Source: Heliocidaris erythrogramma (taxonomy: Eukaryota; Echinodermata; Echinoidea; Camarodonta; Echinometridae). From it: 64,000 nucleotides of DNA. Below, in pieces: positions 42,278-63,686 of the stretch. Each line of letters starts with the position of its first letter. Positions within the stretch are counted from its first letter, which is position 1. The position numbers were made by a program, and so were the translations under genes. The DNA lies in assembly GCA_025617745.1 (NCBI GenBank), contig CM046853.1:65863981-65927980 (forward strand). Direction: 5' to 3'. Under the pieces are notes generated by a model. It searched no databases and was not told the origin of the DNA. It saw only the letters and a list, made by a program, of their open reading frames with translations.

Positions 42278-43337
42278 TCATAGCTCAACCTTATCTTTTG
42301 GAGTGGCTAAATTTTCACTTTCTGTAGCTGTATCAGGTTTTGGCGTTTCTTCTGTCGTCTCTTCTGGTAGCTGAGCCGCACGCACGTACGCTTCAAAATC
42401 CTCTGCCATTCTTCCACCAGTGTATTTCTCTACAAACTCACCATTGCTGTAGAGATTGAAGGTGGGGAATCCCCTAACTTCATATTCCTCACAAAGACCT
42501 GTGAAAGCGAGGGAGAGACAGAAAGAGTGAGAGAGAGAGAAGAGAGATAGAAAGATCATAATTATTGAATGGAAAATCTAAACAGAGGATGGAAAAGATA
42601 TCCTCTAATACCAATTCCTTCCTACTAAAAGATGAGTCTAATATTGTATCTATTGTATTGTACTTTTAGGCTGGTTACCAAATATTATTTGGCTATGGGG
42701 TGCCAAGTGGAACATTTGTTATTTGTAATGAAACCAATGACTCTGAAACTAGATCTTACCAATTGATTTGTCCTCGAAATCAGTCTTGGGACTGATTTCA
42801 TCCATGAAAGCTTTCGGATTCATTTTGATAAAAAAAATCACAAGTGTTACACTTGATGCACCATCAGCGGTTTTCATTTTCCATTATATACTAAAGACTT
42901 CATACGCGTGACTGTTATGGTACAATACTGATCTATGCCAAATTTCATATTTGTAATGCTCTGCAAATGGGATACGTTCCCTTGAAAAGAATGTACATGT
43001 ACTACCATATAATCAAAATGAAAGGTGTGATTCCTTTACCTAACATGAAAGAAAGAAACAAAAGCAACTATAGAAAAACATCCACTTACTCTTTTCTACA
43101 GTGCAGTCAACAGCAGCCAGTTTCCTTCCCGGTGTATCTTTGAAAATCTCTGCCGCCTGCTGGAAGCTGGGTTTGGCCTTTTTACAGTGACCGCACCATG
43201 GCGCATAGAACATGGTCAGTACATGGGTGTTGTCCTGGATGAACTGGCCAAAGGTCTGGCCAGTCAGGTGGTTGACCGAGCTGGGGACATCACTCCAGGC
43301 GGGTTCAGGGGGAGGTGGGGGAGGCACACTGGTTGGG
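42278..43337 (-). CDS. PDIA5: PDI thioredoxin domain 5 and C-terminus (2 exons)
   Basis: Exons 43090-43337 and 42278-42498. Linker TSVPPPPPPEPAWSD, then VNHLTGQTFGQF, VLTMFYAPWCGHCKKAKPSF, KLAAVDCTVEK, SLCEEYEVRGFPTFNLYSNG, FVEKYTGGR. After an acidic Thr/Glu-rich tail comes KDKVEL and TGA at 42278-42280. Here the Trp codon is not interrupted, unlike the other four domains. Linker and DCTV.K..C signature resemble domain 3. KVEL is a plausible KDEL-receptor ligand; human PDIA5 ends KEEL (recalled). Confidence 0.9.
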
Positions 43338-46300
43338 CTATAAAGAAAAGACATAGATGTGGGATGAAGTTAACAATGATATGCAATGTTAAATTCATAA
43401 AGTCTAATGATGGAAAAAACCTCTTTGGGGAATTACTTTCTAAATTATATGCTTAAGGATATTGTTATCCACATACATACATACATACATACACATATAG
43501 TGACAAATGTATTTCACTGATTGATGAAATAAAAAGAGAAAATATTTCCATCCACAAAAGAATTATACAAAATGGTCAAAAGGGCACATCAACTTTGATA
43601 GATAGCTGTCCATATGATTTCCACATTGCATAACTTATAAGTTTATCATTCTATCTCATGACACGTTAGAATAATTGCATGTATTCACACATTATATACT
43701 CAACTGAAAAAGTGAGTTCCTCCGACACTTTTTATATAACTCAAGAAATATTTGTTGAAATCTGTTCATTCAAAAAGCAAAATGGTAGGCAGAATTTTCC
43801 TATCTACAACTTTTTTAGTTATTTGATAATAATTCATTATTTTTTTCATAATGAAACTATGGTTTTTATTGCAGTCGGTACAAGAAACAAGTAATCTTTT
43901 GTTCATGTAAAGACAGATAAATTTCAATTCAAATTCATGAAAATGACCTAAATATTGCAATTTTTCAATGCAGTTTTATGAATTTTAATTACAAGTTATG
44001 CACCTGTAAATGAACAAAAGAAATGAATAGAGTAAACAATGTACACGCTGCATTGCCTTATAAATGCAAAGTGCAACTTTTTTTTCTCATACTGAATGCA
44101 ATAAAAACCATAACTTCATTATGAAAACATAATCAATAGTTTTACAAATAACCAATTAAATTGTGTGTAAGAAAATTCTGCATACGTTGCTTTTCGATTG
44201 AACAAATTTTATCAAATATTTCTCAAGCTATATTAAAAAGTGTCTGGGGGAACTTACTTTTCTGGTTGAGTATATAAGTGACTGCTGGTTGAAAAGCTTT
44301 TGTTTTGATGTAAACAAATAGATGTCATTTCTTTCTTTAAAAATATCTCAATTTTTGTTAACATTTAACTACACGAGACAGACCACTGGCACACAGTATA
44401 ACATTCAATGGAAAATAAATAATAATAATAATAATAATTGTTTTATATAGCGCAAATTGCTGCAGCCTCTAAGTGCTTTAGAGAGAAAAATTAATCTGAA
44501 ATGAAAACCTTAAAGAATAATATTAAGTAATGATAATCCAACGTCAGTAGAGGAAGAAGTTAAAAGCTATTTAGAACAAGACTTGAAAAGATGGGTCTTC
44601 AACATTGTTTTAAAATTATTCACAGAACTAGCATTACGAATATCAATGGGAAGATTATTCCAAAGAAAAGTAGCAGCATAACTGAAAGAACGTTGACCAT
44701 ATTGCTTGTAAAAAGTACATGTAGTTTTAGGACGAGATAAGAGAGATTGAGAAGCAGAACGTAAAGTCCGGATAGGAGTGTATCGAGGGACAAGTTCTGA
44801 AAGATATGAAGGGGCAAATCCATGATAAGTCTTAAATACAATGTTACTCACTCTTTGATAAATTCAAGAAGTGCCTCAGCTGACCTTGCTCCTGTATAGG
44901 CAATATCTTCTTTTCCATTTCTATGGAAAAAAATAAACAATTCAAAATTAATATCACTAACAAGATAGAAAACAAATCAAGTAGAAAACAAATGAAATCA
45001 AAAGAAAATACAATTCAATGCAACTGTCATTTTGCCACTATGCAGGTCTTCTTATCTAAATTTTGTCATTGAAAATGCATTTGAATTCATAATAAATTTC
45101 AAATACTCCTAAACAAATTTATCATTCAAACATATTTTTCCTTCTCATTTCCACAGTTCTCAATGTGAAAGTTTTACTTTTCATTACTACAATATTAAGA
45201 ATACTTTATTTTATAATACAACTGGGGTACTAAAAATATCATACATACCAAAATACATCTGTATAAATCAAATGCATTACATTAATTCTACAATTTTAGG
45301 GTACTTTACATTACTACAAAAATGGACAAAATAGCCATGAGCATACTGCATGCGTTGATAGAAAAGGAAGACAAAAAAAATCTGATGCCGTTATACTTAC
45401 TTGAAATATTTCACTGATGAGGATCAATATGGCACCCGGACATGCAAAGAAACAAAGAATGACAGAATAGAATAAAAAAGACCTGATGTTGGACCAGTAC
45501 CATTCTAAAAAAAAAAAAAAAAAATTGCCCAGATGACCGTCCAATTTTAAAACAATATCTCATGGTTTATGTAAAAGTACCCGTATGACCGTGCAATATA
45601 TTTCCATATCTCATGGTCTGGGGATGCACGTCAAAAAGTGAATACGTGTTTGAATACGCAAAGGTTAAGACAATGGATGTATGCGCGCAGCTCTTGCAAG
45701 ACGTTTGGGTAAGGACAAAAATAATGTTTTTCTACATGTGTATTATGTTGAAGTCAATACAAAAACATCAGGACATGTAATGGTGAAAAGTGAGGAGCTA
45801 GGTTTCATACAATTAATAATAATAATATTGAATGGCTTTTCTTTCGTGGGACACAAGGGTATACTGCACTCACTTTGAAAATAATTCACTCGTCGTGCCG
45901 ACTCGTGAAATATGCTCATAGCTCATGCGATATACCCTTGTATCCCACTCAAGGCCATTCAATGTTACATAAATATTACGGGATAACCTCGCTACTCATA
46001 AGGACCGCTATTCATAAGGACCACTAATTCATATGGACGACTATCCATAACGCGTGACTAAATGAATAGCGGTTTTGTATGAATAGCGAGCAAACCATAG
46101 ACAAATTACCTCGCTATTCATGAGGACCTCCATTCATAAGGACCACTATTCATAACTATTCATAAGGACCGCTATTCATAATGCATGTTAAATGAATAGC
46201 GGTCCTTATGAATAGCGAGCGGACCCCAATATTACTTGGTAACATATGGGATATACCTTTGACTTGCCCATTCAAAAAGACTTGTGAAAGGTTTGGTTCC

Positions 46301-49300
46301 CCTTACATCGTTCATTTATTTATAAAGGTAGCTTACTCATGCTGACCAATGTTGATGCTTTCTACTCACATGTTGGGAATCCTTTAATTTCAAAGTTTGA
46401 TGCTGTCATTGCAGCAACGGTAGCATCAACAGCTGCAAATTTCCCAGGTAACTGATTGAAAAATAAGAAATAAAAGTAACTTTTGTTAAAAATCATACTA
46501 TGTAGAAGCAACACAATAAAAAGTATATGTGCACTCAAATTAATTTACACAATGTTCCCAAGCTTTTGATATCTATAATTCTGTTTTAATTGCTTTTTCG
46601 GAGGAGTTATGTCAAATAATGATAATGGTCAACTTAAATGAAAACATAAAAATCATTAAGCTTACTTTTAATAAACTAAAAATTGTACAGGAACTACTTT
46701 TTCAATTACACAGAAAGCAAATTATCTTGGGACTCCTACACACTTCAAACATTTAGAAAGGAAATCTTGTGGGGTATGATTTATTATTTGCACTCAATAC
46801 TGTTGAAAAAATGAATAAATACTGGAAAAAAACTGGCAAAATCACATTTTGCTCTTTAGCTAATGTTGCTGCTTCTGCAAATGCTGGTTTCATCCTCTTA
46901 CAATGTCCACACCCTAAGAATCAGAACAAAAAGAAAGAACAATGTCAAAAAAATTAGGTATCATTTAAACTTTGGAAAATCAACAAACAGCGTTCCAATG
47001 GACTGATAGATTGATTGGGCAATGAGGAAATGCTCTGAAGAGCTCAAAAATAATGTGGAAATCGTTTTGTAAAGTGAGGATCAGGAAGATGAGATTATTG
47101 CTACATAATGGAGCCCTTGAAAATGTGGCATTGACAGGAAGGATTGAGGGAGGGAAGAGGAGTAAAGAAGAAAGTTAATTTGGATGAATAATTCAAAGAA
47201 ATGGCTTGAAGAAAGAGGAGTGAATGGACAGGGATGGAACTGATGGAGAAAACTAAAAGTTTTGGACAGTATGATTGCCAAAGTCAATGGACACTGCACA
47301 GAGAGAGGGAGAGAGAGAGAGTGATCAAACTTCAATAAATTAACTTACGTTACATAGAGTAAATGCCCCTTTTGCTGTTGGAAATCAACTCCCAGTTTCT
47401 GCTGATTTTACACATTATTTATTTCAATAAAAATTACCCTGCAATGTATCAATATCAGACTGGAATATATTCATTTCATACATTGACATGAACCAGCTAA
47501 TGGAAATAAGTATATGCCCAGAGTAAATGTCAGCAAATCAAATGTTACATAAACCCATTTGACAAGATTACCCACAAGACTGACAGCCTGCAAGACCAAC
47601 AATGCGTTGGTGCGATCTGGCAACACAAAGGTTTTTATTGTGGTATACGCAAGAGGGGCAAGCTGAGTGTATTGGACACCACAATAAAAACCTGCGTGTT
47701 GCCGGATCGCACTAACACACAAACTCACAACCATGTATTAATAGCTTTATAAAACGGGTCAGCAATATGATTATGATTATGCCACGAGTCGCACAGTCAT
47801 GGAGGCTGCCATTTGCTTTCCTGTATGACATCACATAAGCGCAGCCAACAAAAGTCATGCGAGTTTCAGTGCGTGCATGTAATCCCTGCGCTAAAATGAC
47901 AATTAAACAACGCGATTTCATTGCAATTTTAAGTTCAGCCGTGCATTAGTGCAATTTTGCCGTGCGTTAGTACTTTCTTTGTGCACGGTCACGTGGTGTT
48001 ATTTGACCAATCGGGATGGCTACATTCTTGAACCTGTTTTATAACCCCTTCTAACAACTTATATGAGGATTCAGTAGTCCTACATGTCAGTTCCACAAGC
48101 TTTCTGACAACTTTTCTTAGGATTCACTATTGTCATTAGTCTTGAGGACTGTCCGAACTAGGAGGGGAGGGGGCACCCTACACCTACAGTGTACATGTAC
48201 TTACAGGGAGCGAAGAACATAACCAGGACTGAGGGGTTAGTGGACAAGAAGCTCAGGAAAGTGACGTCATCAAGCTGGTTGACATTCTCTCCTCCATCAA
48301 GCTCTGCCCAGAAGTCTTCCGGAGGAGGGGGAGGGGGCTGGCTAGCAGCAGAGCCAGGGCTGACCTGGTTCTCCATGAAGCGTATGAAATCTGCTTCCTG
48401 TAAGGAGACAAGAGACAAACATTAAAGCTAGTAATCAACATTGAAATAATGATGCAAAGTTTGCAAACTCAGCCTGAAGTCATCAAGAAAGAATTGTATT
48501 ATATAGCAATTTCAATATGTAAAACGATCAGATTTTGGTGATAAAGTTCTTTCATTCATTCAAAATGTATTGGGCATCAACATCATATCACCAAGAAAGA
48601 AATGCCTGCATGTCTCAAGACCAAGGTCAGAAAGAAATTACTTTTCAAAATAAAACATTCAAAACTATTCTCATGTAAACCTCAGTCTAAATTCAGTTGA
48701 CTGCAGTTACCTTTTGCAAAAAAAAAGCAAATAAAATTCAATAATTTATGTATGTATTAAGATGATACATTGCACATAAAATATATGACTATTGGATGCG
48801 AGGGGGAGGGGAACGTTACAATTTAAGGCAGAGGCGGCAGAACGTCGGGCACAGACAATGGAACTGGGGGGGGGGGGGGACCTTTTGTCCGCCAAACAAA
48901 AGGTCCCCCCCCACTTCCATTGTCTGAGACCCACATTCCGCCGCTTCTGATTTAAGGAAAATAGTTGCATCACATGCCTGTCAAAACAATTTAATTTTAA
49001 GACTTTTTATAAATTACAGCATTTGTAGCATGTCTCACTGAGCTAATTCTTTGTCTTCAGCCAACACACATTTCACAGCGTCCTTGCTTTGTATATTCAC
49101 ACTCACGTGCAAAAACACACTCGCATAAAAAGAACATGAAGCTAATACAAACTTTTGAACTTGAGTACCTCTCAAGCTGCCTCATAGATTTTCAACAGGG
49201 CTAGCTAATTTCTACCTGCCCACAGATCCAATGTAAATTACATTCCTCCTTGTTTACAAATTAGGGCCGAGATATCACTGCCCATTATTTCTTGTAGATT

Positions 49301-52300
49301 TCTCCTCTCTTGTAAATTACAAGCTAGCCTTTGTTCCATACTTGTTTTTGTAAATTACACACCCGTTTGTGTAAATTGCCGAAGTGCTTGAGTGAATTTC
49401 ACACTCAAGGTATTTCCTGTGTAATATACAACCTGTCATTCAAAGACACTGAAACCTACATGACCAAATGCTATCTCTTAATTTAAGTTCAATGACACTG
49501 CAATAGTGAAGTCAGCAAATCTTTAACTTTATTAAAATACATTTATATTTGGCAAGGAAAGAGCAACTTCATTAATCATGAGTCCTTTTTATAAGCCAGT
49601 GTGGATTCATTTCTTGGGCGATATCATGATCACATCGGTATCAGAACATTTGCCTTTCATAAACAATTTAATTTTGCCTGAATGTTGATCATTCTTTCAA
49701 TATGAATACATAATAGAAAGAAGTAAAAAGTGTTGGACTAGAGTACAAACCTGCTTTGGGTATAACTGTTCGATAATCAATTTCTTTCCACAAGAGAAGG
49801 TAATTCAGGACATTAAGTTTATTATATATGTGATGCCACTCTAATAGAGTGCCTTTTCAAGTTATTAAAACAATCTTTTAGAATGAAAGCAAATGAATCT
49901 GTTAATTACTTGATGCAACTCTTTGCCACTAAAAGTGAAAAACCAAGCTTCTCACCAAATCATGAGAGAAAACATGATTTTGCTAATGCTGCAAGAGACT
50001 GTTATTTGGACTTGCAAATGGAGACCAAGACCAAGACCAAATTCATCCCTTACCTCTCTTCCGCTGGCATAGTCCTGTACCAGTTTGCCGTAGCTGAAAT
50101 ACTTTATGGTTGGGTATCCTGATACATCATAGGTTGAACAAGAATCCTTGTGCACTGTGCAGTCTATTGCAGCAAATGAAACCTAGTTATCCAAGAAATG
50201 GAGGATAAAATTACTTTAATTACTTATATAATTTTTCTTTCCCTTATATATATATATATATATATACTATATTTCTTCTTTTCTAGTATGAAGTACCTCT
50301 ATAAAATAATTGATTCTCTCTCTCTCTTTTCATGAAACAAAAGAGAGAAATTAAAATAATGGTTACATGTCGTTTTTCCAAAGGTTTTATCTCGGAGGGT
50401 TATTTCCAAAGGTTTGTTACTCCGACGGTTCATAATTCTGAAAATAAAATAGGGTTCCTAATTCAGAAAATGAAATAGAGTTCATAATTTCCAAAGGCTT
50501 GCAATTCCGAAAAGTTAAGTAGGGCTCTATTGCATTTTTGAAAATTACGGACCTTCGGAATTACGAATCCTTTTCCATTTTCGGAATTACGAACCCTATT
50601 TAATTTTCTAAATTATGAACATTCGGAAAATCAAAAACCTTCGCAGTAATGCATCAAATGCGCGGAATTATGATCCCTATTTCATTTTCGGAATTATGAA
50701 TCCCATGCTATAGGCAATTTGTGTTTTGGAACTACGAACCTTCGGAAAAACTCCCAAAATAATTACCATTAATCTGAGGAAAATCAGATATCTTTTATCC
50801 CTAGTCACATGTCTGAATGTGAAAATATATAGATTCAAATATAAATTCTTACTTTAGTTTCTTCCTTGAATTGCTCAGCCGCTGACATATATTCCGGTTT
50901 CGCTTTCTTACAATGGCCACACCCTGAGAAAAAAAAAATGAATAGATCAACGAAACAAAGAAGTGCTATGTGCCCACTGTAAATAGGGATACCAGTTGTT
51001 TTATTCCATAAGCCTGAAACAGAGAAGCATTAGGAGCCTTTGTTTGACAAGCAGTTACCTCTTGAATTAAAAAAAAGCCTAATATTACTTGCATCACATA
51101 TATGGAGATATAAATTACATAGCATATTGTTCATAAGTTTACGAACTATTCTCCTAAAGATAAAAAGCTCAAAACCTTTGTCAGCTTGTTCAGAACATAT
51201 TCATAACATATTACAACACATGTAACAACTAAACAGAGTTATGCAAACACCATTTCACACTACCAAATGAGATAAGAGTGCCACTCAAAATAAGAGAAAT
51301 AAAAGTTTGAAAGGTCTAATGGGATGCTCTGTTTGTCTTCTTATACAGCATCTATTTCTCCCTCCATTCTCACCCCAGGAAGACAATTACCATGTTAACA
51401 CAGACAGTATGGTGTAACATTTTTTCACACAAAAGACCACTTTGAAGCTTTTCTGTTTTCACACTTTGAAGAGTTCTTGGAGGTGTACCATCCCATAGGA
51501 CCACCTTTTGAATGTGGTCATGCAGAGCACTTCCTAATACCACAGTCACACCACCAAACCAACACCAACCAACACCAACCAACACCAAACCATCACCAAC
51601 CAACACCAACACCAACACGACACACCGCACCACACCAGACCAGACCATGTAATTTTTTGTTCGGTCTGTTGTCGGTCTGACGTCGGTCCTGTTGGTGTGA
51701 CTGTGGGATAATGCAGTTGCATCTTCACACTCATGTAAGAGTGCTCATAATTTGTGTATATTCATATTTGCATGTTTAAGACCTATCTCGCATAACTTTA
51801 TCTTTAATAAAACGGGGACTTTTGTTACGTTAGTGAAATGAGCTATACAAGCAATGTTCACTATTATTATTGTCATAATTATTTCCAAGAGTGGACATCA
51901 TCCAAGACAATTTTCTCAAGCTCTCATAAAGTAAAATTTTCATAAAGAAAAACAAAAAATGAAAAGTTGAGATCTGAGCTACTTACATGGAGCATAAAAC
52001 ATGACAAGGGTATGCTTCTTCTTCTTGGTGAAAGATTTAAAGTTTTCATCGGTGAGATGGTCCACTTCCGATTCCATGTCACTCCACGCTGGTTCTGGGG
52101 GTGGGGGTGGAGGGGGCTCCTGAGGACTAAAACAAGAAATTAAAAAAGGGGCTATGCATTAAATGGAGCATTAGTACTCAAGCAGTGAAATAAAGGAACA
52201 AAAGAAATGCATCTAGGGATATGGCATATTTGGAGTGAATTCAATATGTACGCAAGAGGAGAGGGAAAGATACAGATGGAAAGGAGAAATATTCGACTTG

Positions 52301-55300
52301 ACAAACGAAGTAAATAAGAGAGAAGATAGCAACAGAATATTAACACAACTACATTTTGGACAACCAAATATTTAAAAATTTGTCAACTTTAAGATTGGTA
52401 TCTATAACAGTTGAAAGTATCTAATGATGTTTTAACGTATTATCATGATAATAATAATATTCCACTTTTATATAGCGCCTAATACATGATAGCAACAAAT
52501 GACACAAATTCCTTTTTTGACAAATGCCCTACATTCTGATAATTGTGGGATGTACTGAATGATGTTTTGATGTATAATTATGATAGGAATTTAACATATG
52601 ACACAAATTCCTTTTTTGACAAATGCCCTACATTCTGATAATTGTGGGATGTACTGAATGATGTTTTGATGTATAATTATGATAGGAATTTAACATATGA
52701 CACAAATTCCTTATATTGACAAATACCCTACATTGTGATAATTGATTCATTGTGAAGAAAATACTTACTCTCGTAAATGTTCCACAAACTTGTCTGCTGT
52801 CCTTTCACTGAAGTCCCATACATGCTCTCCATTCCTGTCAGTCACAAGTCAAATAAACAAAGAAAATTGAATTGCAATGAAAAAGAATGTCTGTAAACTG
52901 GAAGATTATTCAGCTACTCAAAAATGAGATTATACAACCTACATGCACAATCTTTGTAATTGAATATATGCAATGAAACAATATTTCAAATATAAACTAT
53001 TATATGACACCTAATTAGATCCTTGCCATTTGATTGGTTGTTTGATGTTGATCATTTGTCCCATTTAACAATTACGTCATCAATCGTGCAAATTTGATCC
53101 ATTCACCGTGCAATTTTGGATCCATACAAAATTGTCTATTGCACTCGCGACCACCAACACGTCTACATACGCAAAAACGACTTGCCTTGGCAGTGCGCAT
53201 GCGACTACCGCAGCCGCGCGCTCTGCAACAAAATGAAAGTCCCTTCACTCAAACTTGTTTCTTAATTCATAAAATGTCAAATGAGAAGGATAGCTATTTT
53301 TAGGTGTCTCCTATATGCCTCTGCCTAAATTCAGTTGATGGCTCAAACTGTTCTAGAAATATTTGATAACGAGGCTAAAAACCAGTAATTTCATGTAATT
53401 TCATGTAAATTGACCTCTGTGACCTCTGACCTTTGACCTACTTACCCCAAAATCTAATCAGTTCATCTTTCTATGGGGATGCATACTGGTACCAAGTTTG
53501 AAGTTCTCACCTCAGATAGTTCTTGAGATATCGCGGTAATGGTGCTAAAAACCAGTAATTCCATGTAATTTCATGTAAATTGACCTCTGTGACCTCTGAA
53601 CTTTGACCTACCTACCCCAAAATCTAATCAGTTCCTCTTTCTATGGGGATACATACTGGTACCAAGTTTGAAGTTCTCACCTCAAACAGTTCTTGAGATA
53701 TCGCGGTAACGGTGCTAAAAACCAAGAATTTCATGTAATTTCATGTAAATTGACCTCTGACCTTTGACCTACTTACCCCAAAATCTAATCAGTTCATCTT
53801 CGTATGGGGATACATACTAGTACCAAGTTTGAGGTTCCTACCTCAAATGATTCTTCAGATATCGCGGTAACGAGAAGTGGGACGGACGGACGGACAACCC
53901 GAAACATAATGCCTCCGCCCACTGAATTTTCATTCGTGCAATGGACAGAATATTTCATTCGGTGAAAGATGAAATGATCCATTGCACTCATAAACATTCA
54001 TTATTTGTATACTAATTCTAATCTTTGATATATGAATGGAAAAAGAATACAGGATATACCTTGTATTTACAGTAAGAACTAAAGTAATTATATTTTGAAA
54101 ATGGCACAATGCTGGGATATGAACATTTTGAGAAAAAATTTCTGCAATAACAGATTCTGGTAAAGTATGAACATGACAAATGGACATTGACATTCCAAGT
54201 ACCTAATGTTACATTGGGAGTGCAAAGAAAGTTGCCTACAGTACATCCTAGAATCACTGAAACACTTTAACCCATAACTGCCAACCTTCCATACAAAAAA
54301 TAGATATCTCATCAGGCAAAATTAGGAATGCTGTATCTTTTGCATGCTTTTACACAGAAGTTTTCAGAAAAAGAGATGAATTTATAACTGAAAGAAAATA
54401 AACTTACTGGAAATATTTGAGAGTTGGGAATCCTTTTACTTCAAATCTTTCAGCCAAAGCTCTGGCCTTAGTTGCATCCACAGCAGCTAATACTCCATCC
54501 AGCTGAAAACAAGCACAAAATCATTATTTATAATTGGTAATCTTGGTTAGAACCCACCTTGAGCAGATCACTGAACCTTGCTTCCCATTTCCCAGATGCA
54601 GACTAGGAAAGAATGTAAACACCCTGTCCTGAATGGGATACTGAATAGCCTAATCATCTTTTCGTGGGGTGCTATAAATAAGCAATTTATAGTTCTTCTG
54701 TGTATAGACCAGTCTGATAAAGAAGCTATAATTTGCTGGCCTAGCCACTATTCTTGCTTACCAAAATAATGAAACTACTAGCAGGACCCGTGGAAATCCA
54801 CGGGTTCACTTTTTACATTGCACTCTCAACATTTTCACAATCGATGTGTACATTCTTGTGAGTTTATTTATTATATTTATGTTAATGAAATTATCACGCA
54901 TACGTGCTCATGATTACAATTACTTAGTCAAACATACCCACATACTCGGTTAAAAATATTGTGTAAAGTTATGTAATGTACAGAATATATTTTAATTCTA
55001 TCTTACATGTCATTATGACATAAGGGGGAGGGAGAGAGAAATAGAGAGAGAGGGAGTGACAGAGAGGGAGTGACAGAGAGAGAGAGAGAGAGAGAGTGTT
55101 GGTAGACAGATAAGAAGAGAGAGAAATTGATGTAGAGAATATAAACATAACAGAAAGAGAAAGAGTGGAATAGAGATAAAAGACTTTCTTTTGATGTTAG
55201 TGTTTCCATTTAACATATTGTTTTATTATATAGTTGTAAAATTAATTAGCAAGTTAATGGCCTAGTTATGTATATTTTGTGTACGGAATATTGTTGTCAT

Positions 55301-58300
55301 CGTAGAGGTCGCTCATTACTAATTAGTCTATAGCAAGAAATACAATTTTAGTTAGAAATCGGTAGTAGTTATCTATTTTCTATAAGTAATCGAGCGAAAA
55401 TTCACCTACACATATCTCAAATTCAGTGAGACACATGTATGAGCAATAAATGCGTTCAATCACATCCTACAATAAACATTAAAAGTATTAAAAAAAATAG
55501 AAGTATGAATTTCCGAATATTGGGCCCCCTCCCTCACAAAATCCTGGATCCGCCGTTGGACATGGTGGATGGTGAAGGCAGGCCCTATCATGCCCCTGCC
55601 CTCACTCTACTCCATCCGGTGGCATAGAAAGGTCCCAAATACAATGAAAATAAAAATGATTGATGCATTCACATAATCCTGCATCACCCATCCCATCTTT
55701 AACCCCTGCTACTTCTATCTACACTGACTTATTTTTCTACAATAAAAAAAATGTAATGTGCATTCACATATCCCCACCCCCCCCTGCCCGCTATATATCT
55801 ACGCCAATGACTTTAATGGAATAACGCTCCTCTAGCATAATGCTTGCCCCTCAAACTGATAATATTCATGGAACATTTTTTTTCTTTTTTAAAGAAACAA
55901 AATAGATGTAGAATATACTCAAATAAGATGAATTTACCATCGAATAAAACATGAATACAGGTGTATTCGGCCTAATCTGTTTCCAATCTTGATATAAGAA
56001 ACCCAGTGAGGCATTTACTGCAGTGCGGGCTTTAAAATTCAAGTAATGTATAGAATCTGCTCTGACACATATGCGCGTACCAAGGGGGGTGTTTTGGGTG
56101 TTCTAGGTGTTCAAACATCCCCCGTTTGGTGTTATTTGAAGTATAAAAAACCCCTTTAAAATTCCTGATAACCCCCTTTTTTTTTGCTTGTCAGATTTTT
56201 GTAAAAAAGACCCCCCCCAATTAAAAAAAAATACTGATTTTTTTTTTTTGCTTGCCAGAATTTTTTAAAGTAAAAACCACCCCCTTTAAAAAATCCTGGG
56301 TACGCCACTGCTCTGACATACGGTAGGATAAATTCATCGTCAAATGTTAACTGCAGTTTTAAAAAAATGGTAAGTAGGTCTATACCTATTTTCAATCTTG
56401 AAATAAGCAGCGCTCAGTAAGGTATTTACTGCTGGACATTTTGAACCTGCCAAGCCAATGGGATTTGGTCATTCAGGAGATCGCTCACCTGCTGCCAACG
56501 CGATGTCGTCGTGCAACGTGAAGTCCACGTTGCACATGCGGACGGCCAGGCTGACCGGTCGGGATGGAAGGCGGCTTGCGGCGGGTAGCGGGAAAACAAT
56601 TTATAGAGTCCATCGGACCCCCTCCTGCAGCGCGTGCAAAGTCAATCGGGGCGGGCGCGGGACCCCCGCGTCGCCTTAGCAAATTAATTATATTAGATAT
56701 ACATTACATTAGGAAGCAGTAATATGGCAAGCAAAAACTGAAATTATTAAGTGGCAACCCATGTTGCTTTTAACAATTAAATCAGCAATTTTAGCAACAC
56801 TTTGCGACTTCAAGACAAGTGTAAATTGTGCTTGCCAAGGGGACATATTTGGTTGCCCAGGGCCCAGGGGCCATCTGGCAATAGACTGTGTTCTTACCCC
56901 TTCCTCCTTCAGCTGTGCAGCTGCATCTACATATTCAGGCTTCATCTTTTTGCAGTGGCCACACCCTAAATAAAAATGTGAGACAAAGAGAAGTAAAGAA
57001 TCAAGATGCAAACTTTCATTATCCTTCCTCCTTCCCCTTCTCCTTCTCCTTCTCGTAACTATTATTGTCATTATCATTGCATCTTCATGGCCATCAATAC
57101 CATCGTAACCATCACCATCACCATCACCATCCCCATCATCATCACCATCACCATCCCCATCACCATCACCATCACCATCCCCATCATCATCACCATCACC
57201 ATCCCCATTATCATCACCATCACCATCCCCATTATCATCACCATCACCATCATCATCACCATCATCATCACCATCACCATCATCATCATCATCACCATCC
57301 CCATCACCATCCCCATTACCACCATCCCCATTACCACCATCCCCATCATCATCACCATCCGCATCCCCATTATCATCACCATCACCATCATCATCACCAT
57401 CATCATCACCATCACATGATCATTACCACCATTACCATCTCATCAACTTCACCCTCATTATCTCACCCCCACTTCATCATCACCACCTCCACTATCATCA
57501 CCACAACCATCATCTCCTTACCACCACCACCATCACCACCACCACCACCACCATCATGATCATCTTACGTCCTACTCACATGGTGCATAGAACATGACCA
57601 TAACAGAGTCATGGATGGAGATGTATTCATCAAAGCTCTGATCCTCTAGATGGACAACATCATTTTCCTCATCACTCCATTCTGCCTCTTTCTCTGGCTC
57701 CTTTGGTGGCTGTGGACTAGAGGGAATCACAAAGTATAAATAAGTATTGGGAAATTCCAAATGGGACAAAAAAAAAAGAATTTTAAAAAGTGTATCAAAC
57801 CTTTGAATCATGACATATTTTGTGTAACAATTGTACCCATCACAAGGAAGAGTATACAATCTTTCAACAATGTCACTGGTCGATGTGATCGAAGAATCAG
57901 GAGAATTCCTTTGTAAGTTGAATGACAGCATATATTACATACCAAATTCTCTAATGCAAATTCCGTTACAAGTGATTACAAGTGTACATGTATCACCAGG
58001 CCTCGTAAAACTCAACTAATCAGTGTGACATAAATTCATGTCAGTAAAATTATAGCGGAAATGTGATTTCAGTCCATTACTCGCTTACTATTACTAAGAA
58101 CTTGCTCAATTTGAGTTATGAGACCCATTTTCCTGGGAATACAATGGAATGGGTATTATTACAGAATCTGCAGCTGAGTCGTTATATACACTCCAGCATT
58201 CAAGAAAAAAGGCACACCCTATCAGGTATCCATTTACTTCACCTGGGTTGAGAGTGGCAAATTAGAATAATGTCAAGTTGGAGAAGGATGTTAGTGCCAT

Positions 58301-61300
58301 AGCATTCAAAACTTACTCCTCCATCCACTCAACAATTCCTTGTCGTGTTCTCTCACCACCGTAATCATATTTCCGTTTTCCTTTCCTGAAAGAAAGAATG
58401 AAAGAGAGAGAGAGAGAGAGAGAGGAGGGTTTAAGATAGTAATGAAAGCAGCAGCACACTTTGCACAAAAATCATTACACAAAAATCACTGCACTGCACT
58501 TTGTATCACTTATAGGGCAATCCGACCTTGGTAGTAAGATGATTTGTGAGAAAGCAGAAAAATAAGAAAAGCAGGATGGTGAAAGTTTGAAAGAAATCGG
58601 ACGAGGAATAAGAAAGTTATGGATGTTTGAAAAATGAGATCACTACATATGCGCGAATCTCAAACTGGCAATTTTGTGAGCCGATTGCGACATAGTGACA
58701 ACTCTCCCGTTTGTCGTACACAAAAAATATCATTAATTTGCGTTTATTTCCAAATTGCCTTTACCCTCAGGGCAGTACTCAAAATTTATTGGAGATAGCA
58801 TATTGTTATAGGTCCTCATGAAAGAAAAAGATCCTGAGTAATACATTTTTCAAAAAATGACATTTTAATAATTTTGTGTGTTGGAGCAAATGGGGGAGCT
58901 GTCTGCCATTACATTACTGTGACATTACCTGTGAGGCCAATTTGAAATTCCCATATGTATAGGGATTACAACTTTCAAAAATTGATAACTGTTTTATTGG
59001 TTGTCCGATTTCGTTCAAACTTTCACCAAACTGCTTCTCTGATTTTCCCCTTTCTTTAAGAGCAACTTGCCATTAAGGTTGGATTTCCCATTAATGATAC
59101 AGATACTATACTGAACAGATGCACATGTAAATGGAAAGGTACAAACTAAGTAGGTGTAAATTTTTATCATTTATGAATAATCCACAATATTGGTATAAGC
59201 TGATGAAGTAAACAAATCAATTTGTTCAGTATTCTGTTTTTGAATATACCTAAAAGTGTTGAACAAAAGCCCATAATAGTCATGTTTTGAACTCCTAAGT
59301 ATTTCAAAATTATCTTGTTCAGTAGTGATTTTGGTAAATTATCGATCTCAAAATAGAGAATTATTAGAAATTCCACGAAGGAAAATATGTAGCCCCTTAT
59401 AAAGGGGAGAAGGAAATTGTCTGGCTTGATAAATAAATAAATGTGACTTGCATTATAACATCACTTTTTAATAGGAAAAACCCCCACCATGCCTAATAAT
59501 TCGTTCTGTTTTGTACAGGGATAAGAATGTTCCAGGCAGTTAACTATCAGATTCTACCAGTATAGCAGGAAGTAATTAATATCATCATTCTTGTCTTCAG
59601 CTTACTCAAAATACAATATTGTTGGGAATCCTGTGATGTTAAAAGTTTGCCTGGTGGCCATGTTTTCTGGTCTATCCACATCCATGCCAGCTAAGACCTG
59701 TTAATTAAGGAAATGAGATCAAATAAAGATGATATTCATATATTATAAGATATTATATGAAGAGGAAATAAGAAGAGGAACTATTGAGATAATATTATAG
59801 CAGGAAAAGAATAAAATATTCTCAAGATCTGACATTTGATATGTTAGACTAAAAGAAACCCACCCCAATGTATTTCAGACATTTACACAACAATCCTAAG
59901 CTGCGGCATAGCTACGGGGCTGGGGGGGGTGGGGGGAGTTAGCATACATTCTAAAGAGAATAACAACAAAAATTACAAACTTAAACATGCAAAAACACAA
60001 ACATGATACAACCTCCTCCTACTCCCTCCCCTCCATATATGGCCTTGTTCTGTAGCATTTTCTGGTGCTCACCCCCTCCCTCCCCCTTCCACCCCCTCAA
60101 TGACCGGACGCACAAAACACAACTAATTAGCAAGTAATTAGACCTTGAGAATACTTTTCAGCACTTTCATGAAGGAAGTTTTATACAAAAAATATTCTAG
60201 TTTCAAAAGACACCTCTAATCAATTTTCTCATTAACTGATTTTGTTCAAACAGTAAACCCTATTCGTTATCAAAAACTAAAATCTTAGACCTTACTGTAC
60301 ATACAGTAATTAATAATGTCTGTAACTATTGATTGGTGATTCTTTCAAAAGTGAAACAAATGTGACACACGCAAGTAGATGAAGAGGTGCCCAGTTTCAC
60401 TTATAACCATTATTTTTAAGTTTTGCTTTGTCTTGTATGGGAAAAGTTCACATATTTCCACGAGAAGTACCCTTCTCAATCAAAATATTTATGAAATCTA
60501 GATAAGAAGAACCCTGTATGTGTAAAATCACACATAACAGCCAACCTCCCTTTGATCTTTGAAAAAAATATAGCATGATATCGTGACTAGAAATAGCTTC
60601 TATACTGCCCATCAATTATTTATCTTCACTATGTAAGACATAAACCATGAACCTTGCTTGATACTTATAAGCTTTTTATAGGATTTACAATATTTTCAGA
60701 ATTTAACTGGTGGCAATATAACCAAAGTCCTTTAACCTTTTATTCACTGACCACCCAGGACCGCACTTTGTCAGCCTTATGCCAAAAGGGCCTTAAGGTC
60801 ATAGACATTATACAGTGATAAGGCCCTTTTGGCATAAGGTCGATGACTTCTGATCACTCACTGAACCGCCCAGGAACGCTCGTGGACTTTGACATGTGTA
60901 ACACTACATCAAATGTAATGTAGGGGATATTGGGCACTGAATTTTTCTGTGTGCTATCTTTACACATAAGCTATTTAGAATCCGTATTGAAGCGACACAT
61001 TACTGTGAAAAGATTTTCTGTGCAGCAGAGTCTATGCTGCAAGATGGTTTACTGAAACATAATTCAGTGAGTAAATGACTACAATACGCATAATCCTTAG
61101 GTACTAAAGGGTTAACTTTTCATACTTTCACAACTGCTACATCAATAATTATGTAGTCTATCATGAAAACTGATATAAAAAAGCTGGTTAAAATGACAGG
61201 ATAAACTTACTGCTTCTCCCTTCAGCTCTGTGGCTGCTCCTGCAAACTCGGGTTTCATTCGCTTGCAATGACCGCACCCTAGTTAAGTTAACACAATCAC

Positions 61301-62970
61301 ATTAAAAAGGAAGTTAGAAGATCTGTGCAGTTTAGAGGGAGCCACATTTGCATTTTCATTGGAAATCTATCTCTTCAACCCTCTAATGTATCTCAAAAAG
61401 CAAATTTGATTTGAGGATTAATCATGTGGAGGAACATAATTTACCCCAAATTGTGGTTCATTTAACAAAATATCCATGATCACTACATAAGTGACATAGA
61501 CCGCGTTTACACAGAGTGAACTCGAGTTCAAATTCGACAGCGAATTCAATTGCGACCTTGGATTAGCATAAATTATTTTTCGGTGGGCTGTTTACACCAA
61601 GCGTTGGACGAACTCGAATTCAGAAGGAAAGTGAATTCGACTTGATAACGCCCTCGCTTGGTGGGAATATCGTGATAATCAACTTCCGGGTTAAATTTGT
61701 GAAAACCCCGCGAGTAAGTTCAAAATGGCGGTAGCGAGTATTGTAAGCGCAGCCATTTTGATCTGGTTTCGTATGATTTTACGTCGGAATTACAAAATTA
61801 TGAACGAATATTTGCAGATGTGATGAGCGCGTGGTGGATTGAATCAAGCCAGTTCGGTGAATGTGTCGTCGTTCGTTGTGGTTCACTTGTTGAATGACGC
61901 TTGTTTTACTGACGCGACGCTTAGCGTTGCTTAGCAATACCGGAAGTGACGTATGACGGGGTCACTGGCTGGATATTTGCTAGTCGACTTTCAATTACGT
62001 GTCCGTTCATACTGCAAATAGCGAATTTAAATTCGATAATAGTCGAGTTTGAATTCGATAAAAGTTGCTCTGGGTCGTCATTCGATTTTGAGTTTTGAAC
62101 TCGAGTTCTAACTGCGACTACCCTGTTTACACACAAATGAACTCGAGTTCAAATTCGACTAAAGTCGAGTTCAGTCTCTGTGTAAACGGGGTCATAGTTT
62201 TCAACTCCAGAATGTCTCTGTATCAAGACCACTACTCCAGACAACTGAAGCAGTAGGTTCTTTAAGCCATCTTGAATTATCCTTTTTTCTTTATATTTCT
62301 ACCATTTGTAAAGTCAGTTTTTAGAGAAATGTTTTGAAATATGCATTAAAATACATGATAACTTGTGAAAAATACTGGCATAACAAGATTCCTGAAGCAT
62401 TTATTTTATCCGACTTTCAGGATAGCAGGGCAAGTATATATATGAAAATAACATAAAAGATATTTGACGAAACTGATGGAGAATCACATTTTACAGATCT
62501 GCTATCTCAAGATGTTCCCAAGATGTTCTTAAAAATAAATTATTCCATCTACCCTGGTCTCACTGAATATCAATAAGAGGAAATGAATGGAAAGAAAAAT
62601 CTAGAACAATTTGATGTAATCACTTACACGGTGCATAAAACATTGTCAGCAATGGCTTTTTCTCCTTGTTCAAAAGTTTTTGGAAATCCTGTAAGGAAAA
62701 AAGGAAATGAAAGAGGATATAAAACTAGCTTTTATGCATAATATAGAGGCACTGAAAGTAGTTGACTTTCGGGACAGACCACTATCTATTTGGCTAACTA
62801 GAAGCTCAAAGAAATATATCTTTTCAAAAAACCCGTCACAATGGGAAATTTAAGACCAGTATACAGATATAGAACGTATTGTATCTTGGTTTTACCTGTA
62901 CAAATAGCTTCTTGTACATTTGGAGATAGTTGAGGCAATCCTCAGTTTGACTAAGTATTGTTAATCTGAC

Positions 62971-63007
<37 letters not shown>

Positions 63008-63686
63008 TGTCTTCTTTACCCAGGATAGCCTTATCAGTATTATATACTGTTCTCCCTGAGGGTCCTGCAATCATACTATTACCCTGGCTTTAGCAGAGCT
63101 ACCGTGGTGTTCAAGCATTCAAGGAATTCCTTCCTACCAGGTAACCATTTACCTCACTTGGGTGGAGAGTGGCAAAATGTAGAGATCAATGTCTTGCCAA
63201 AGGACAAGAAGCATGAACAAATATACCTTTTCTAACGAAAAGAGATGCATTTGTTTGTCATACAATGACATCACCTTTATTGAAAGTTCTGAAAAGAATT
63301 GTCTTTGTGCTCTCAATATGAACCGCATCTTCATCATCTGGCTCTTCCTCCCATGGTATATCTCCCTCTGGATATCCATGTCACTAACTTCACCCTTAAC
63401 CCAAGATAAAGCTTCCCTATTGGTGCACCTCCTACAGAAATGACAGGTCCTAAATGCATTACTTATAACAAAATACTGCATAGAGCTCTAAACACTGTTC
63501 TGTTCTGTTCAGCCATTCAATTTTTATTACAAATTCACTACAAGACCCACATGGTGTATCCATAATTGTCTGTGCTTTCAGACCCTGACATACCTTTGCA
63601 CTCTCGATATGAACCACATCTTCAGCATTTGGCTCTTCCTCCCACGGTATATCTCCCTCTGGATCTCTCAGGAAGTTTATAAATGA
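42278..63686 (-). CDS. PDIA5: PDIA5-like protein disulfide isomerase, 5 thioredoxin domains (19 exons, 5' end outside window)
   Basis: An endoplasmic-reticulum thiol-disulfide oxidoreductase that forms and isomerises disulfides in secretory proteins. Nineteen exons join without a frame break to 1983 nt: 660 residues plus TGA. Numbering from the first codon seen, WCGHC cysteines lie at 53/56, 175/178, 298/301, 429/432 and 553/556. Each domain has the cis-Pro loop (GFPT or GYPT). Proline-rich linkers separate the domains and the protein ends KVEL, a KDEL-like retrieval signal. Domain 1 ([18 protein letters not shown]), domain 2 (AAVDAT, FPTLKYF.NG) and domain 3 ([14 protein letters not shown]) match the order of human PDIA5 as I remember it. 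Human PDIA5 has three such domains with CSMC, CGHC and CPHC; here all are CGHC and two domains are added. The signal peptide and N-terminal non-catalytic domain must lie beyond 64000. What is odd: extra domains, a microexon, and a decayed exon copy. Confidence 0.88.
42757..42824 (-). other. Exon-like block inside the last PDI intron
   Basis: On the minus strand ATG starts a short frame, MNPKAFMDEISPKTDFEDK, ending SIG at a good GTAAGA donor. No splice acceptor precedes it, so it does not insert cleanly between the last two PDI exons, which already join in frame. It could be an internal first exon or chance. Confidence 0.15.
43692..44279. mobile_element. Long palindromic MITE, about 590 bp
   Basis: The left end TATACTCAACTGAAAAAGTG and the right end (reverse complement TATACTCAACCAGAAAAGTA) continue pairing inward for well over 150 bases, for example CATAATGAAACTATGGTTTTT against its complement near 44.1 kb. 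A TA/TATA flank suggests a Tc1/mariner-type origin. It lies in the intron between domains 4 and 5. Confidence 0.8.
44420..44847 (-). mobile_element. 5'-truncated non-LTR retrotransposon (LINE) 3' end
   Basis: The minus-strand frame up to about 44847 reads FKTYHGFAPSYLSELVPRYT, then RTLRSASQSLLSRPKT, RSFSYAATFLWNNLPIDIR and SSVNNFKTMLKTHLF before its stop at 44567. This is the conserved tail that follows the reverse-transcriptase domain in many animal LINEs. The 3' UTR ends GCGCTATATAAAACAATT plus (ATT)n at 44420-44440. The reverse transcriptase itself is missing, so the copy is dead. Confidence 0.9.
44852..48397 (-). CDS. PDIA5: PDI thioredoxin domain 4 (5 exons including a microexon)
   Basis: Exons 48205-48397, 46846-46913, 46370-46451, 45401-45413 and 44852-44920. 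They encode EADFIRFMENQ, linker [87 protein letters not shown] and LLEFIKD. It resembles domain 2 most closely (AAVDAT, FPTLKYF.NG). The second exon probably ends AAT|GTGATT, the weakest donor in the gene; a phase-0 alternative (CCA|GTTTTT) lies 12 bases further on. The last exon's donor directly abuts a LINE fragment. Confidence 0.85.
45401..45413 (-). CDS. PDIA5: 13-nt microexon of the PDI gene
   Basis: Between CCTCATCAG and GTAAGT lie 13 bases, TGAAATATTTCAA. They complete a Leu codon begun by the previous exon (T|TG), encode Lys-Tyr-Phe, and begin a Lys codon finished by the next exon (AA|A). Without it the reading frame breaks and the conserved LKYF strand is lost. The same residues in domain 2 sit uninterrupted in one exon, which supports the call. 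Confidence 0.85.
45827..45966. repeat. Inverted-repeat element
   Basis: ATTGAATGGC...GTGGGACACAAGGGTATA at the left is mirrored by TATACCCTTGTATCCCAC...GGCCATTCAAT at the right. A foldback transposon remnant in a PDI intron. Confidence 0.75.
45987..46220. repeat. Two adjacent foldback units
   Basis: Both units (45987-46090 and 46109-46220) start CCTCGCTA(C/T)TCATAAGG-like and end with the complement ATGAATAGCGAG. Inner motif AAGGACCGCTATTCATAA is repeated several times within each arm. Confidence 0.85.
47540..48060. mobile_element. Foldback element region
   Basis: A strong inverted repeat pairs GTTGGTGCGATCTGGCAACA (47606 on) with TGTTGCCGGATCGCACTAAC (ending 47716), including AAGGTTTTTATTGTGG and its complement. 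Further on, TTTATAAAACGGGTC (about 47.75 kb) pairs loosely with AACCTGTTTTATAA (about 48.03 kb). Probably one or two nested non-autonomous elements. Confidence 0.6.
48829..48950. repeat. Inverted repeat with poly(G)/poly(C) arms
   Basis: CAGACAATGGAACTGGGGGG...GGACCTTTTGT pairs with ACAAAAGGTCCCCCCCC...ACTTCCATTGTCTG around a short loop. The outer AGGCGGCAGAA pairs with TTCCGCCGCTT. Confidence 0.8.
50054..52126 (-). CDS. PDIA5: PDI thioredoxin domain 3 (3 exons)
   Basis: Exons 51987-52126, 50853-50923 and 50054-50182. Linker PPPPPPPEPAWSD, then [75 protein letters not shown] and ASGRE. An extra Cys pair in the DCTVHKDSC segment matches domain 5. This domain has no intron after YF, so its last exon is 129 nt and both ends are phase 0. 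Human PDIA5 has CPHC here (recalled); this copy has the canonical CGHC. Confidence 0.9.
50250..50272. repeat. (TA)n microsatellite
   Basis: A pure TA run just upstream of the foldback region. Confidence 0.9.
50371..50755. mobile_element. Foldback element built from GGAATTAYGAACC-type repeats
   Basis: The left half carries AGGGTTC(A/C)TAATTC(C/T)GAAAA motifs and the right half the complement (TTTTCGGAATTACGAACCCT), each several times. The ends are TTTTTCCAAAGGTT and AACCTTCGGAAAAA. Non-coding, in the intron between exons of domain 3. Confidence 0.7.
51535..51711. mobile_element. Small inverted-terminus element with (CCAACA)n core
   Basis: Termini ACCACAGTCACACCA and TGGTGTGACTGTGGGATA are near-perfect inverted repeats. 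The interior is a CCAACA/CCAAC minisatellite (51556-51620) then GGTCTG repeats. Confidence 0.7.
52450..52495 (-). mobile_element. LINE/SINE 3' tail remnant
   Basis: The minus strand reads AGGCGCTATATAAAAGTGG followed by ATTATTAT, the same tail type as the SINE at 24.6 kb and the LINE at 44.4 kb. Confidence 0.5.
52501..52745. repeat. 99-bp tandem repeat, about 2.4 copies
   Basis: GACACAAATTCCTTTTTTGA begins at 52501 and recurs at 52600; a third, diverged partial copy starts at 52699. Units 1 and 2 look nearly identical. Intronic, between domains 2 and 3. Confidence 0.95.
52769..57716 (-). CDS. PDIA5: PDI thioredoxin domain 2 (4 exons)
   Basis: Exons 57580-57716, 56898-56965, 54408-54502 and 52769-52834. 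The linker DPQPPKEPEKEAEWSD leads to [33 protein letters not shown], then [29 protein letters not shown] and QNGEHVWDFSERT. Introns fall at the Trp codon (phase 1), after KEEG (phase 0), after YF (phase 2) and before the next linker (phase 2). The AAVDAT and ALAERF signatures match PDIA5 domain 2. Confidence 0.9.
53374..53925. repeat. 170-bp tandem repeat, three copies, ending in a GGAC-rich terminus
   Basis: GCTAAAAACCAGTAATTTCA starts at 53374, 53544 and 53714, a 170-bp period. The third unit lacks a GTGACCTCTGA segment. The array ends with GGGACGGACGGACGGACA and ATAATGCCTCCGCCC. Similar sequence is, to my recollection, dispersed in several marine invertebrate genomes, so it is probably a mobile satellite-like element. 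Confidence 0.85.
54776..54812. repeat. Short hairpin
   Basis: ACCCGTGGAAATCCACGGGT is a hairpin with seven-base arms, likely the end of a dispersed element. Confidence 0.5.
55021..55165. repeat. (GA)n microsatellite
   Basis: GA runs with GGGA and GTGACAGA interruptions in the intron between exons of domain 2. Confidence 0.9.
56080..56315. repeat. Degenerate dispersed repeat with poly(T)/poly(C) units
   Basis: TTTGCTTGTCAGATTTTT and TTTGCTTGCCAGAATTTT, each followed by an ACCCCC run, form imperfect tandem units ending GGGTACGCCACTG. Typical of an old interspersed element. Confidence 0.5.
56475..56685. other. Isolated GC-rich island in an intron
   Basis: About 210 bases of strikingly higher GC, with many CpG, inside AT-rich intron DNA. 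Both strands are open for about 65-73 codons. The minus strand includes CNVDFTLHDDIALAAG followed by a donor-like CAG|GTGAGC. It does not fit into the PDI frame, which is complete without it. Origin unknown: a captured exon, a transposon piece or a CpG-rich regulatory island. Confidence 0.3.
57105..57560. repeat. (CACCAT)n/(CATCAC)n minisatellite
   Basis: About 450 bases of CACCATC, CCCCATC and CATCATCAC units with a loose higher-order period (blocks with CCCCAT every 30 or so bases). It gives His/Pro and Met/Val open frames that are not genes. It lies just before the donor of the 57580-57716 exon. Confidence 0.95.
58140..58300 (-). mobile_element. SINE fragment
   Basis: The minus strand carries TTTGCCACTCTCAACCCAGG and TGAAGTAAATGGATACC, matching the body of the SINE at 24.6 kb. 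The tRNA head and tail are missing or decayed. Confidence 0.65.
58317..63686 (-). CDS. PDIA5: PDI thioredoxin domain 1 (5 exons)
   Basis: Exons 63594-63686, 62628-62688, 61211-61278, 59606-59697 and 58317-58385. They encode the end of a preceding domain (SFINFLRDPEGDIPWEEEP), then [50 protein letters not shown] and IVEWMED. The first exon ends AAG|GTATGT. The Trp codon is split T|GG between exons 2 and 3. The YFE codon is split in phase 2 between exons 4 and 5. The preceding-domain tail shows that more coding exons lie upstream of the window. Confidence 0.88.
58513..59090. mobile_element. Foldback element, about 580 bp
   Basis: GGCAATCCGACCTTGGTAGT at the left corresponds to the complement of the right end (AACTTGCCATTAAGGTTGG). 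GTTTGAAAGAAATCGGACGA pairs with TCCGATTTCGTTCAAAC. No coding capacity. Confidence 0.75.
60775..60839. repeat. Near-perfect hairpin
   Basis: CCTTATGCCAAAAGGGCCTT at 60775 and AAGGCCCTTTTGGCATAAGG ending at 60839 are exact complements around a 24-base loop. Confidence 0.9.
61499..62193. mobile_element. Non-autonomous DNA transposon, 695 bp
   Basis: Termini GACCGCGTTTACACAGAG and CTCTGTGTAAACGGGGTC are inverted repeats with one mismatch. GAACTCGAGTTCAAATTCGA recurs inside both ends. It is flanked by ATA at 61496-61498 and 62194-62196, a likely target-site duplication. The interior holds no transposase. It lies in a PDI intron. Confidence 0.8.
62971..63206 (-). mobile_element. 5'-truncated SINE copy
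   Basis: The minus strand reads GTCCTTTGGCAAGACATTGA, GCCACTCTCCACCCAAGTGA, GGAATTCCTTGAATGC and GCTAAAGCCAGGGTAATA, closely matching the SINE at 24.6 kb, and ends in (ATT)n at 62971-63008. The tRNA-like head is absent. It sits in the intron that also holds the decayed PDI exon copy. Confidence 0.85.
63303..63373 (-). pseudogene. Decayed duplicate of a PDI exon
   Basis: 71 bases match the 63594-63686 exon with 7 differences by hand count. They read PEGDIPWEEEPDDEDAVHIEST instead of PEGDIPWEEEPNAEDVVHIESA. The splice sites are gone: the donor AAG|GTATGT is AAG|ACAATT here, and in-frame stops lie just upstream. It is a relic of a local exon duplication. Confidence 0.85.

Follow-up and report, generated by a model that had tools for sequence, protein, structure and literature searches.

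A PDIA5 gene with five CGHC domains in an echinoderm

A 19-exon frame on the minus strand

We analysed a window of 64,000 nucleotides, the whole stretch of DNA numbered from its first letter. On its minus strand, read from 63686 to 42278, 19 exons join into one frame of 1,983 nt encoding 660 amino acids and a stop. All 18 introns are GT-AG, and their phases are all compatible. The exons are:

63594..63686 (-), exon 1a: b-domain end (SFINFL..), then linker DPEGDIPWEEEPN and the first part of domain 1
62628..62688 (-), exon 1b: domain 1 as far as APW
61211..61278 (-), exon 1c: CGHC of domain 1
59606..59697 (-), exon 1d: cis-Pro strand of domain 1 (GFPTILYF)
58317..58385 (-), exon 1e: end of domain 1
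57580..57716 (-), exon 2a: linker 1-2, then the first part of domain 2
56898..56965 (-), exon 2b: CGHC of domain 2
54408..54502 (-), exon 2c: AAVDAT..GFPTLKYF of domain 2
52769..52834 (-), exon 2d: end of domain 2
51987..52126 (-), exon 3a: linker PPPPPPPEPAWSD (2 to 3) and start of domain 3
50853..50923 (-), exon 3b: CGHC of domain 3
50054..50182 (-), exon 3c: AAIDCTV..GYPTIKYF..SGRE of domain 3
48205..48397 (-), exon 4a: domain 3's last helix, then linker PPPPPPEDFWAELDGG and the first part of domain 4, all in a single exon
46846..46913 (-), exon 4b: CGHC of domain 4
46370..46451 (-), exon 4c: AAVDAT..GFPT of domain 4
45401..45413 (-), exon 4d: 13-nt micro-exon giving LKYF of domain 4
44852..44920 (-), exon 4e: end of domain 4
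43090..43337 (-), exon 5a: linker PPPPPPEPAWSD (4 to 5), domain 5 through CGHC to DCTVEK
42278..42498 (-), exon 5b: the rest of domain 5 and the C-terminal tail, closing with KVEL and a stop

Beyond the upstream end of the window, exon 1a joins four further exons, all in frame with it, at window-equivalent positions:

71377-71251, b-domain exon
68975-68888, b-domain exon
65914-65849, b-domain exon
64482-64437, b-domain exon

A predicted signal exon must lie further upstream than these. A scan of ~32 kb upstream of the first b exon returned weak candidates, including two hydrophobic stretches; one low-complexity weak candidate with a phase-0 donor lies ~5.3 kb upstream of that exon. Rfam and tRNA scans gave no matches.

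The original prediction placed 19 exons and five catalytic domains at 42278-57716. The assembled frame confirms both numbers for the window; the figure of 19 already counts the exons of domain 1. That interval covers domains 2-5 and omits domain 1 (58317-63686), and the gene as a whole has more than 19 exons, the four b-domain exons lying past the window end. In exon 4a (193 nt), EADFIRFMENQ forms the final helix of domain 3; a PPPPPPEDFW linker comes next, and then the strands with which domain 4 opens. By spanning the 3/4 junction, exon 4a places domains 4-5 in the same predicted protein as domains 1-3, as had been proposed. As modelled, domain 3 has neither its own stop nor its own retrieval signal.

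Several other features lie within or beside this gene. At 63303..63376 (-), in the intron that follows exon 1a, is a decayed 74-bp copy of the 3' part of that exon, 89% identical. It ends exactly at the exon end, has no donor site and falls outside the gene model; its continuation into exon 1b, as in a spliced copy, scored no better than shuffles (245 of 1000 were as good). An intronic element of ~695 bp at 61499-62193 (-), with near-identical inverted ends GACCCCGTTTACACAGAG and GACCGCGTTTACACAGAG recognised by eye, looks like a small DNA transposon. Beside exon 4e, an open stretch at 44567-44863 (-) has no Pfam match at E 0.01 and presumably resembles the end of a non-LTR reverse transcriptase. 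Introns also hold two tandem arrays, at 52494-52744 (99-bp unit, 2.5 copies, 96%) and 53367-53872 (170-bp unit, 3.0 copies, 89%).

Five intact active sites

Pfam PF00085 matches five stretches of the 660-aa protein (E 7.2e-136). Taken alone, each domain aligns from profile position 2 or 3 to 101 or 102 of 103, with scores of 91.9-100.3 bits. CGHC, the cis-Pro and a conserved Arg are present in all five domains, and on these residues the five sites are expected to be redox-active. The chain ends in KVEL followed by a stop, a putative signal that should act in ER retrieval.

Beside the active site, PDI, ERp57 and PDIA4 keep a buried Glu, which assists proton transfer at the second cysteine. Met occupies this position in all five domains here, in all three human PDIA5 domains and in the first domain of TXNDC5. 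We therefore predict slower turnover per site than in PDI. The accessible text of PMC3500226 reports lower activity for human PDIA5 than for P4HB and gives the CGHC site of human PDIA5 as its most important.

The gene belongs to the PDIA5 family

The product of the four upstream exons has human PDIA5 b domain 4i6x as its best solved match (E 1.3e-29), with the second-best solved chain at E 9.1e-9, and it is 49% identical over 132 aa to a hand-entered human PDIA5 sequence. Exon 1a by itself matches 4i6x weakly (E 0.041). The human catalytic domains used in all comparisons likewise come from one hand-entered sequence. In a maximum-likelihood (ML) tree of 15 domains (the five of the window, three of human PDIA5 and seven of other PDIs), domain 1 grouped with human PDIA5 domain 1 at 100/99. 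The window domains do not group with those of TXNDC5, which form their own clade (93/99).

Because the b domain matches human PDIA5, we conclude on sequence grounds that the gene is the PDIA5 (PDIR) of an echinoderm. The PDIA5-like assignment of the original prediction is thus borne out by a non-catalytic N-terminal domain. The comparison of five catalytic domains with three in human PDIA5 also held: the accessible part of PMC3500226 gives the human domains as CSMC, CGHC and CPHC, whereas all five are CGHC here. That three-domain set is a human trait and does not imply a family-defining status.

Further likenesses to human PDIA5 are the Met at the buried-Glu site, the identities of domains 1, 2 and 3 (54, 56 and 47% to the hand-entered sequence) and a C-terminal xxEL signal, KEEL in human and KVEL here. 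Over the five-domain stretch, TXNDC5 (8eky) and not PDIA5 scores highest among solved chains; the one human PDIA5 entry to surface among them was the b-domain structure 4i6x. TXNDC5 (ERp46) resembles the window protein in its string of CGHC a-type domains with linkers and in the Met of its first domain, but has three domains and is not known to have a b domain. PDIA4 (ERp72, 3idv) and DNAJC10 (ERdj5, 3apo) are other multi-domain ER oxidoreductases among the solved-chain matches, with three and four catalytic domains, respectively, and other extra domains in both; PDIA4 retains the buried Glu where Met stands here. On the domain tree and the b-domain match we rejected a TXNDC5 or PDIA4 identity.

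The genome searched comprises 1.064 Gb in 26 contigs. A whole-genome search with the 660-aa protein gave 33 matches (67 of 91 candidates scored). Nineteen fall at this locus with 60-99% identity and represent 18 exons plus the exon copy, the 13-nt exon being missed; the other 14 lie elsewhere, at 38-48% identity. No second PDIA5-type locus was found genome-wide among the 67 of 91 candidates scored, and a weaker copy is still conceivable. A TXNDC5-like locus (C4, L020-L021) and a PDIA4-like locus (C18, L013-L014) each show three domains by tblastn of 20 kb fetched, so that neither relative looks expanded. Among viral_contigs and genome_contigs, tblastn confirmed no relatives. On contig C8, two thioredoxin-domain loci lie ~205 kb apart (29118854-29128567 and 29323835-29334248). 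Their scores are identical in the thioredoxin search and near-identical in the protein search, and the pair appears to represent a recent duplication of an ERp57-like gene, or else two haplotypes within one assembly.

No description of a PDIA5 with five catalytic domains turned up in the literature searched, which lies largely outside subscription journals, and such a gene may be annotated somewhere. None is mentioned in the accessible text of PMC3500226, PMC5722932, PMC6080950, PMC10739154, PMC13409769, PMC7794689 and PMC7563561. We regard the gene as encoding a known ER oxidoreductase in a variant form with five sites, not a new kind of system.

Best-supported pairing: domain 2 with 4, domain 3 with 5

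The motifs on which the original prediction drew are all found in the assembled protein: AAVDAT, GFPTLKYF and NG in domains 2 and 4, DCTV.K..C..Y.V in domains 3 and 5, and the linkers 2 to 3 and 4 to 5. AAVDAT, FPTLKYFKNG and a PPPPEPxW linker also occur in human PDIA5 (hand-entered sequence). Several of these motifs therefore predate the copying, and alone they are no proof of it.

Residues exclusive to one pair, counted for all ten pairs of domains, are most numerous in 3-5 (13) and 2-4 (9). Pairs 1-2, 1-3, 1-4 and 2-5 have 7 each and 4-5 has 6, followed by 3-4 (4), 2-3 (3) and 1-5 (1). Judged by these counts, the 2-4 and 3-5 pairing is beyond chance. In a column bootstrap (10,000 replicates, against the window's other domains), domain 4 was nearest domain 2 in 0.939 and domain 5 nearest domain 3 in 0.86. 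The ML tree recovered (2,4,human 2) at 69/86 and (3,5,human 3) at 87/85. The starred grouping is that of domain 1 with human 1; the two key clades fall below starred support. Among constrained trees, p-AU was 0.055 with domains 4 and 5 together, 0.044 with 2 and 3 together and 0.097 with 3 and 5 together without human 3.

The expectation that 2 would group with 4 and 3 with 5 thus stands, with moderate support, at the level of nearest neighbours, while the clades remain unstarred. The opposing arrangement of 4 with 5, named in advance as the one that would refute it, is disfavoured and not quite rejected. On the sequences compared, the 2-4 and 3-5 pairing is the best supported, not a proven, arrangement. 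Over segment B, domain 4 resembles domain 1 most (16 of 23 residues, compared with 13 for domain 2); we rejected a chimeric domain 4 derived from domain 1, as the whole domain is nearest domain 2.

Intron positions agree for domain 4 and differ for domain 5

Domains 1, 2 and 4 have four introns in common, in position and in phase: one of phase 1 at APW/C, one of phase 0 following the first helix, and two of phase 2, behind KYF and ahead of the linker. An extra intron in domain 4 creates the 13-nt exon 4d. The introns around this exon split the domain at GFPT/LKYF and KYF/K, the first being unique to domain 4. Domain 3 has the APW/C (phase 1) and after-helix (phase 0) introns and, behind SGRE, another of phase 0. 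All three are absent from domain 5: its APW/C position lies uninterrupted within exon 5a, and it carries one private phase-1 intron after DCTVEK. A phase-2 intron marks every domain junction except 3/4.

This pattern is consistent with domain 4 being like domain 2 (or 1) and lends no positive support to a derivation of domain 5 from domain 3. The introns of domain 5 and the 3/4 junction tell against a simple genomic copy. Either intron loss at the 3' end or a second event would explain the introns of domain 5.

Estimated age of the proposed copying: near the echinoderm-vertebrate split

Against the hand-entered human sequence, identities are 54% for domain 1 with human 1, 56% for 2 with human 2, 47% for 3 with human 3, 48% for 4 with human 2 and 46% for 5 with human 3. 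Within the protein, 2-4 reaches 49% and 3-5 reaches 47%. The copying is old, because domains 2 and 4 are less alike than domain 2 and human 2. In blastn between the module 2-3 and module 4-5 regions (E 1e-3), only three short matches appeared (50, 35 and 25 bp), all exonic, by which a recent duplication was rejected.

Site counts for domains 3, 5 and human 3 form a star (15, 14, 15). Those of human 2 lean to domain 2 (17, versus 9 for domain 4), with 10 exclusive to 2 and 4, and human 2 picked domain 2 over domain 4 in 0.971 of bootstraps. When the modules were concatenated, the topology joining module 4-5 with the human module was nominally best in all four runs. That joining 2-3 with 4-5, the arrangement expected of a lineage-specific copy, was best in none, with a bp-RELL of 0.0465 in one; by the AU test, all three topologies survived every run (p-AU 0.127-0.824). 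In the ML tree, domain 2 groups with 4 rather than with human 2 (85/86) and domain 3 with human 3 rather than with 5 (82/80), so the two halves of the tree conflict over timing. From these comparisons we estimate that the copying took place near the time of the echinoderm-vertebrate split, on either side of it. Of the proposal that module 2-3 was copied to give 4-5, the pairing stands; an expansion within this lineage is not demonstrated, given the outcome of the four runs, which a five-domain ancestor with later reduction in vertebrates fits equally well.

Origin and possible function of the five-domain form

We consider it probable that this PDIA5, with a b domain and five CGHC domains, acquired domains 4-5 through an old head-to-tail copy of module 2-3. 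The copied module would most likely have been fused to the C-terminal end of domain 3. The timing evidence also allows a different history, which we hold to be possible though doubtful: the five-domain form would be ancestral, at least to deuterostomes, and vertebrates would have lost one two-domain module. The closeness of domain 2 to human 2 rather than to domain 4, in identity and in bootstraps, speaks for such a loss, as do the near-equal distances among 3, 5 and human 3 (47, 47 and 46%) and the failure of the 2-3 with 4-5 topology to come out best, though AU rejects none. Faster change in new copies would yield the same identities, however, the ML tree places domain 2 with 4 and apart from human 2, and the human side of every comparison is one hand-entered sequence. 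That the five-site enzyme is ancestral to animals or deuterostomes, and the three-site vertebrate enzyme a reduced, specialised derivative, seems to us slightly less probable again.

Two separate additions, beginning for example with domain 4 from domain 2, domain 5 following later or by way of a cDNA-mediated copy of domain 3, would fit the absence of every domain 3 intron from domain 5, its private intron and a 3/4 junction built unlike the others. Yet a single event explains the order 1-2-3-2'-3' with a 2-3-like linker at 4-5, and 3'-biased intron loss would account for domain 5, so we judge two events unlikely. It is very improbable that domains 4-5 are a neighbouring gene or pseudogene wrongly joined to PDIA5. 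Their joining rests on predicted splicing, but domain 3 finishes and domain 4 begins within one open exon, 4a, on which ground we rejected this reading. As modelled, domains 4-5 moreover contain no stop or frameshift, keep CGHC and cis-Pro intact and end in KVEL, and domain 3 lacks its own retrieval signal.

A single copying of module 2-3 remains our preferred account. Its product would be a soluble ER thiol-disulfide oxidoreductase consisting of a non-catalytic b domain at the N-terminus, then five thioredoxin domains of the a type separated by proline-rich spacers, and KVEL. The analysis establishes its gene structure, domains, motifs and family; that it is expressed, resides in the ER and is catalytic is inferred, as is the single copying event. 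Its five CGHC sites on polyproline linkers would isomerise or reduce disulfides of secreted proteins, and one enzyme could engage several cysteine pairs of a large client. The spacers probably hold the domains apart, the sites acting independently on one such client, and the number of CGHC sites could offset what each site lacks.

If the gene is expressed as modelled, deuterostomes differ in how many catalytic domains one ER folding enzyme has, with five CGHC sites here against one CGHC and two altered sites in human PDIA5. Natural three- and five-site versions would allow a test of the extra sites and of polyproline spacing. Should the five-site form be ancestral, PDIA5 biochemistry would rest on a derived enzyme with two non-CGHC sites. 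In starfish proteomics, PDIA5 is among the folding enzymes of a collagen-secreting cell fraction (PMC13409769, accessible text), so that a connection with bulk secretion of extracellular matrix can be put to the test. For human cells, the accessible parts of two papers implicate PDIA5 in ATF6 activation (PMC6080950, PMC10739154); in the first of these, partial knockdown of PDIs including PDIA5 did not significantly impair thapsigargin induction of BiP.

A neighbouring homeobox gene and the mitochondrial code

At 7894-10588 (+), the window also contains a homeobox gene with an intron inside its homeodomain, two open stretches matching positions 1-46 and 42-57 of Pfam Homeodomain. Its residues look like those of Evx/even-skipped; if it is Evx, PDIA5 would adjoin the posterior end of a Hox region.

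Elsewhere in the assembly, COX1 on the mitochondrial contig (C24; 12,905 bases) has 11 in-frame TGA. The usual echinoderm mitochondrial genome is longer than this contig, which is perhaps incomplete. Translated with table 9, COX1 contains DDQIYN, RMNNMSFW and MPIMIGGFGNW, and table 5 gives K for N and M for I. Set against the usual COX1 motifs, AAA reads as Asn and ATA as Ile, as in the echinoderm code, which supports an echinoderm origin of the DNA; table 9 also serves flatworms.
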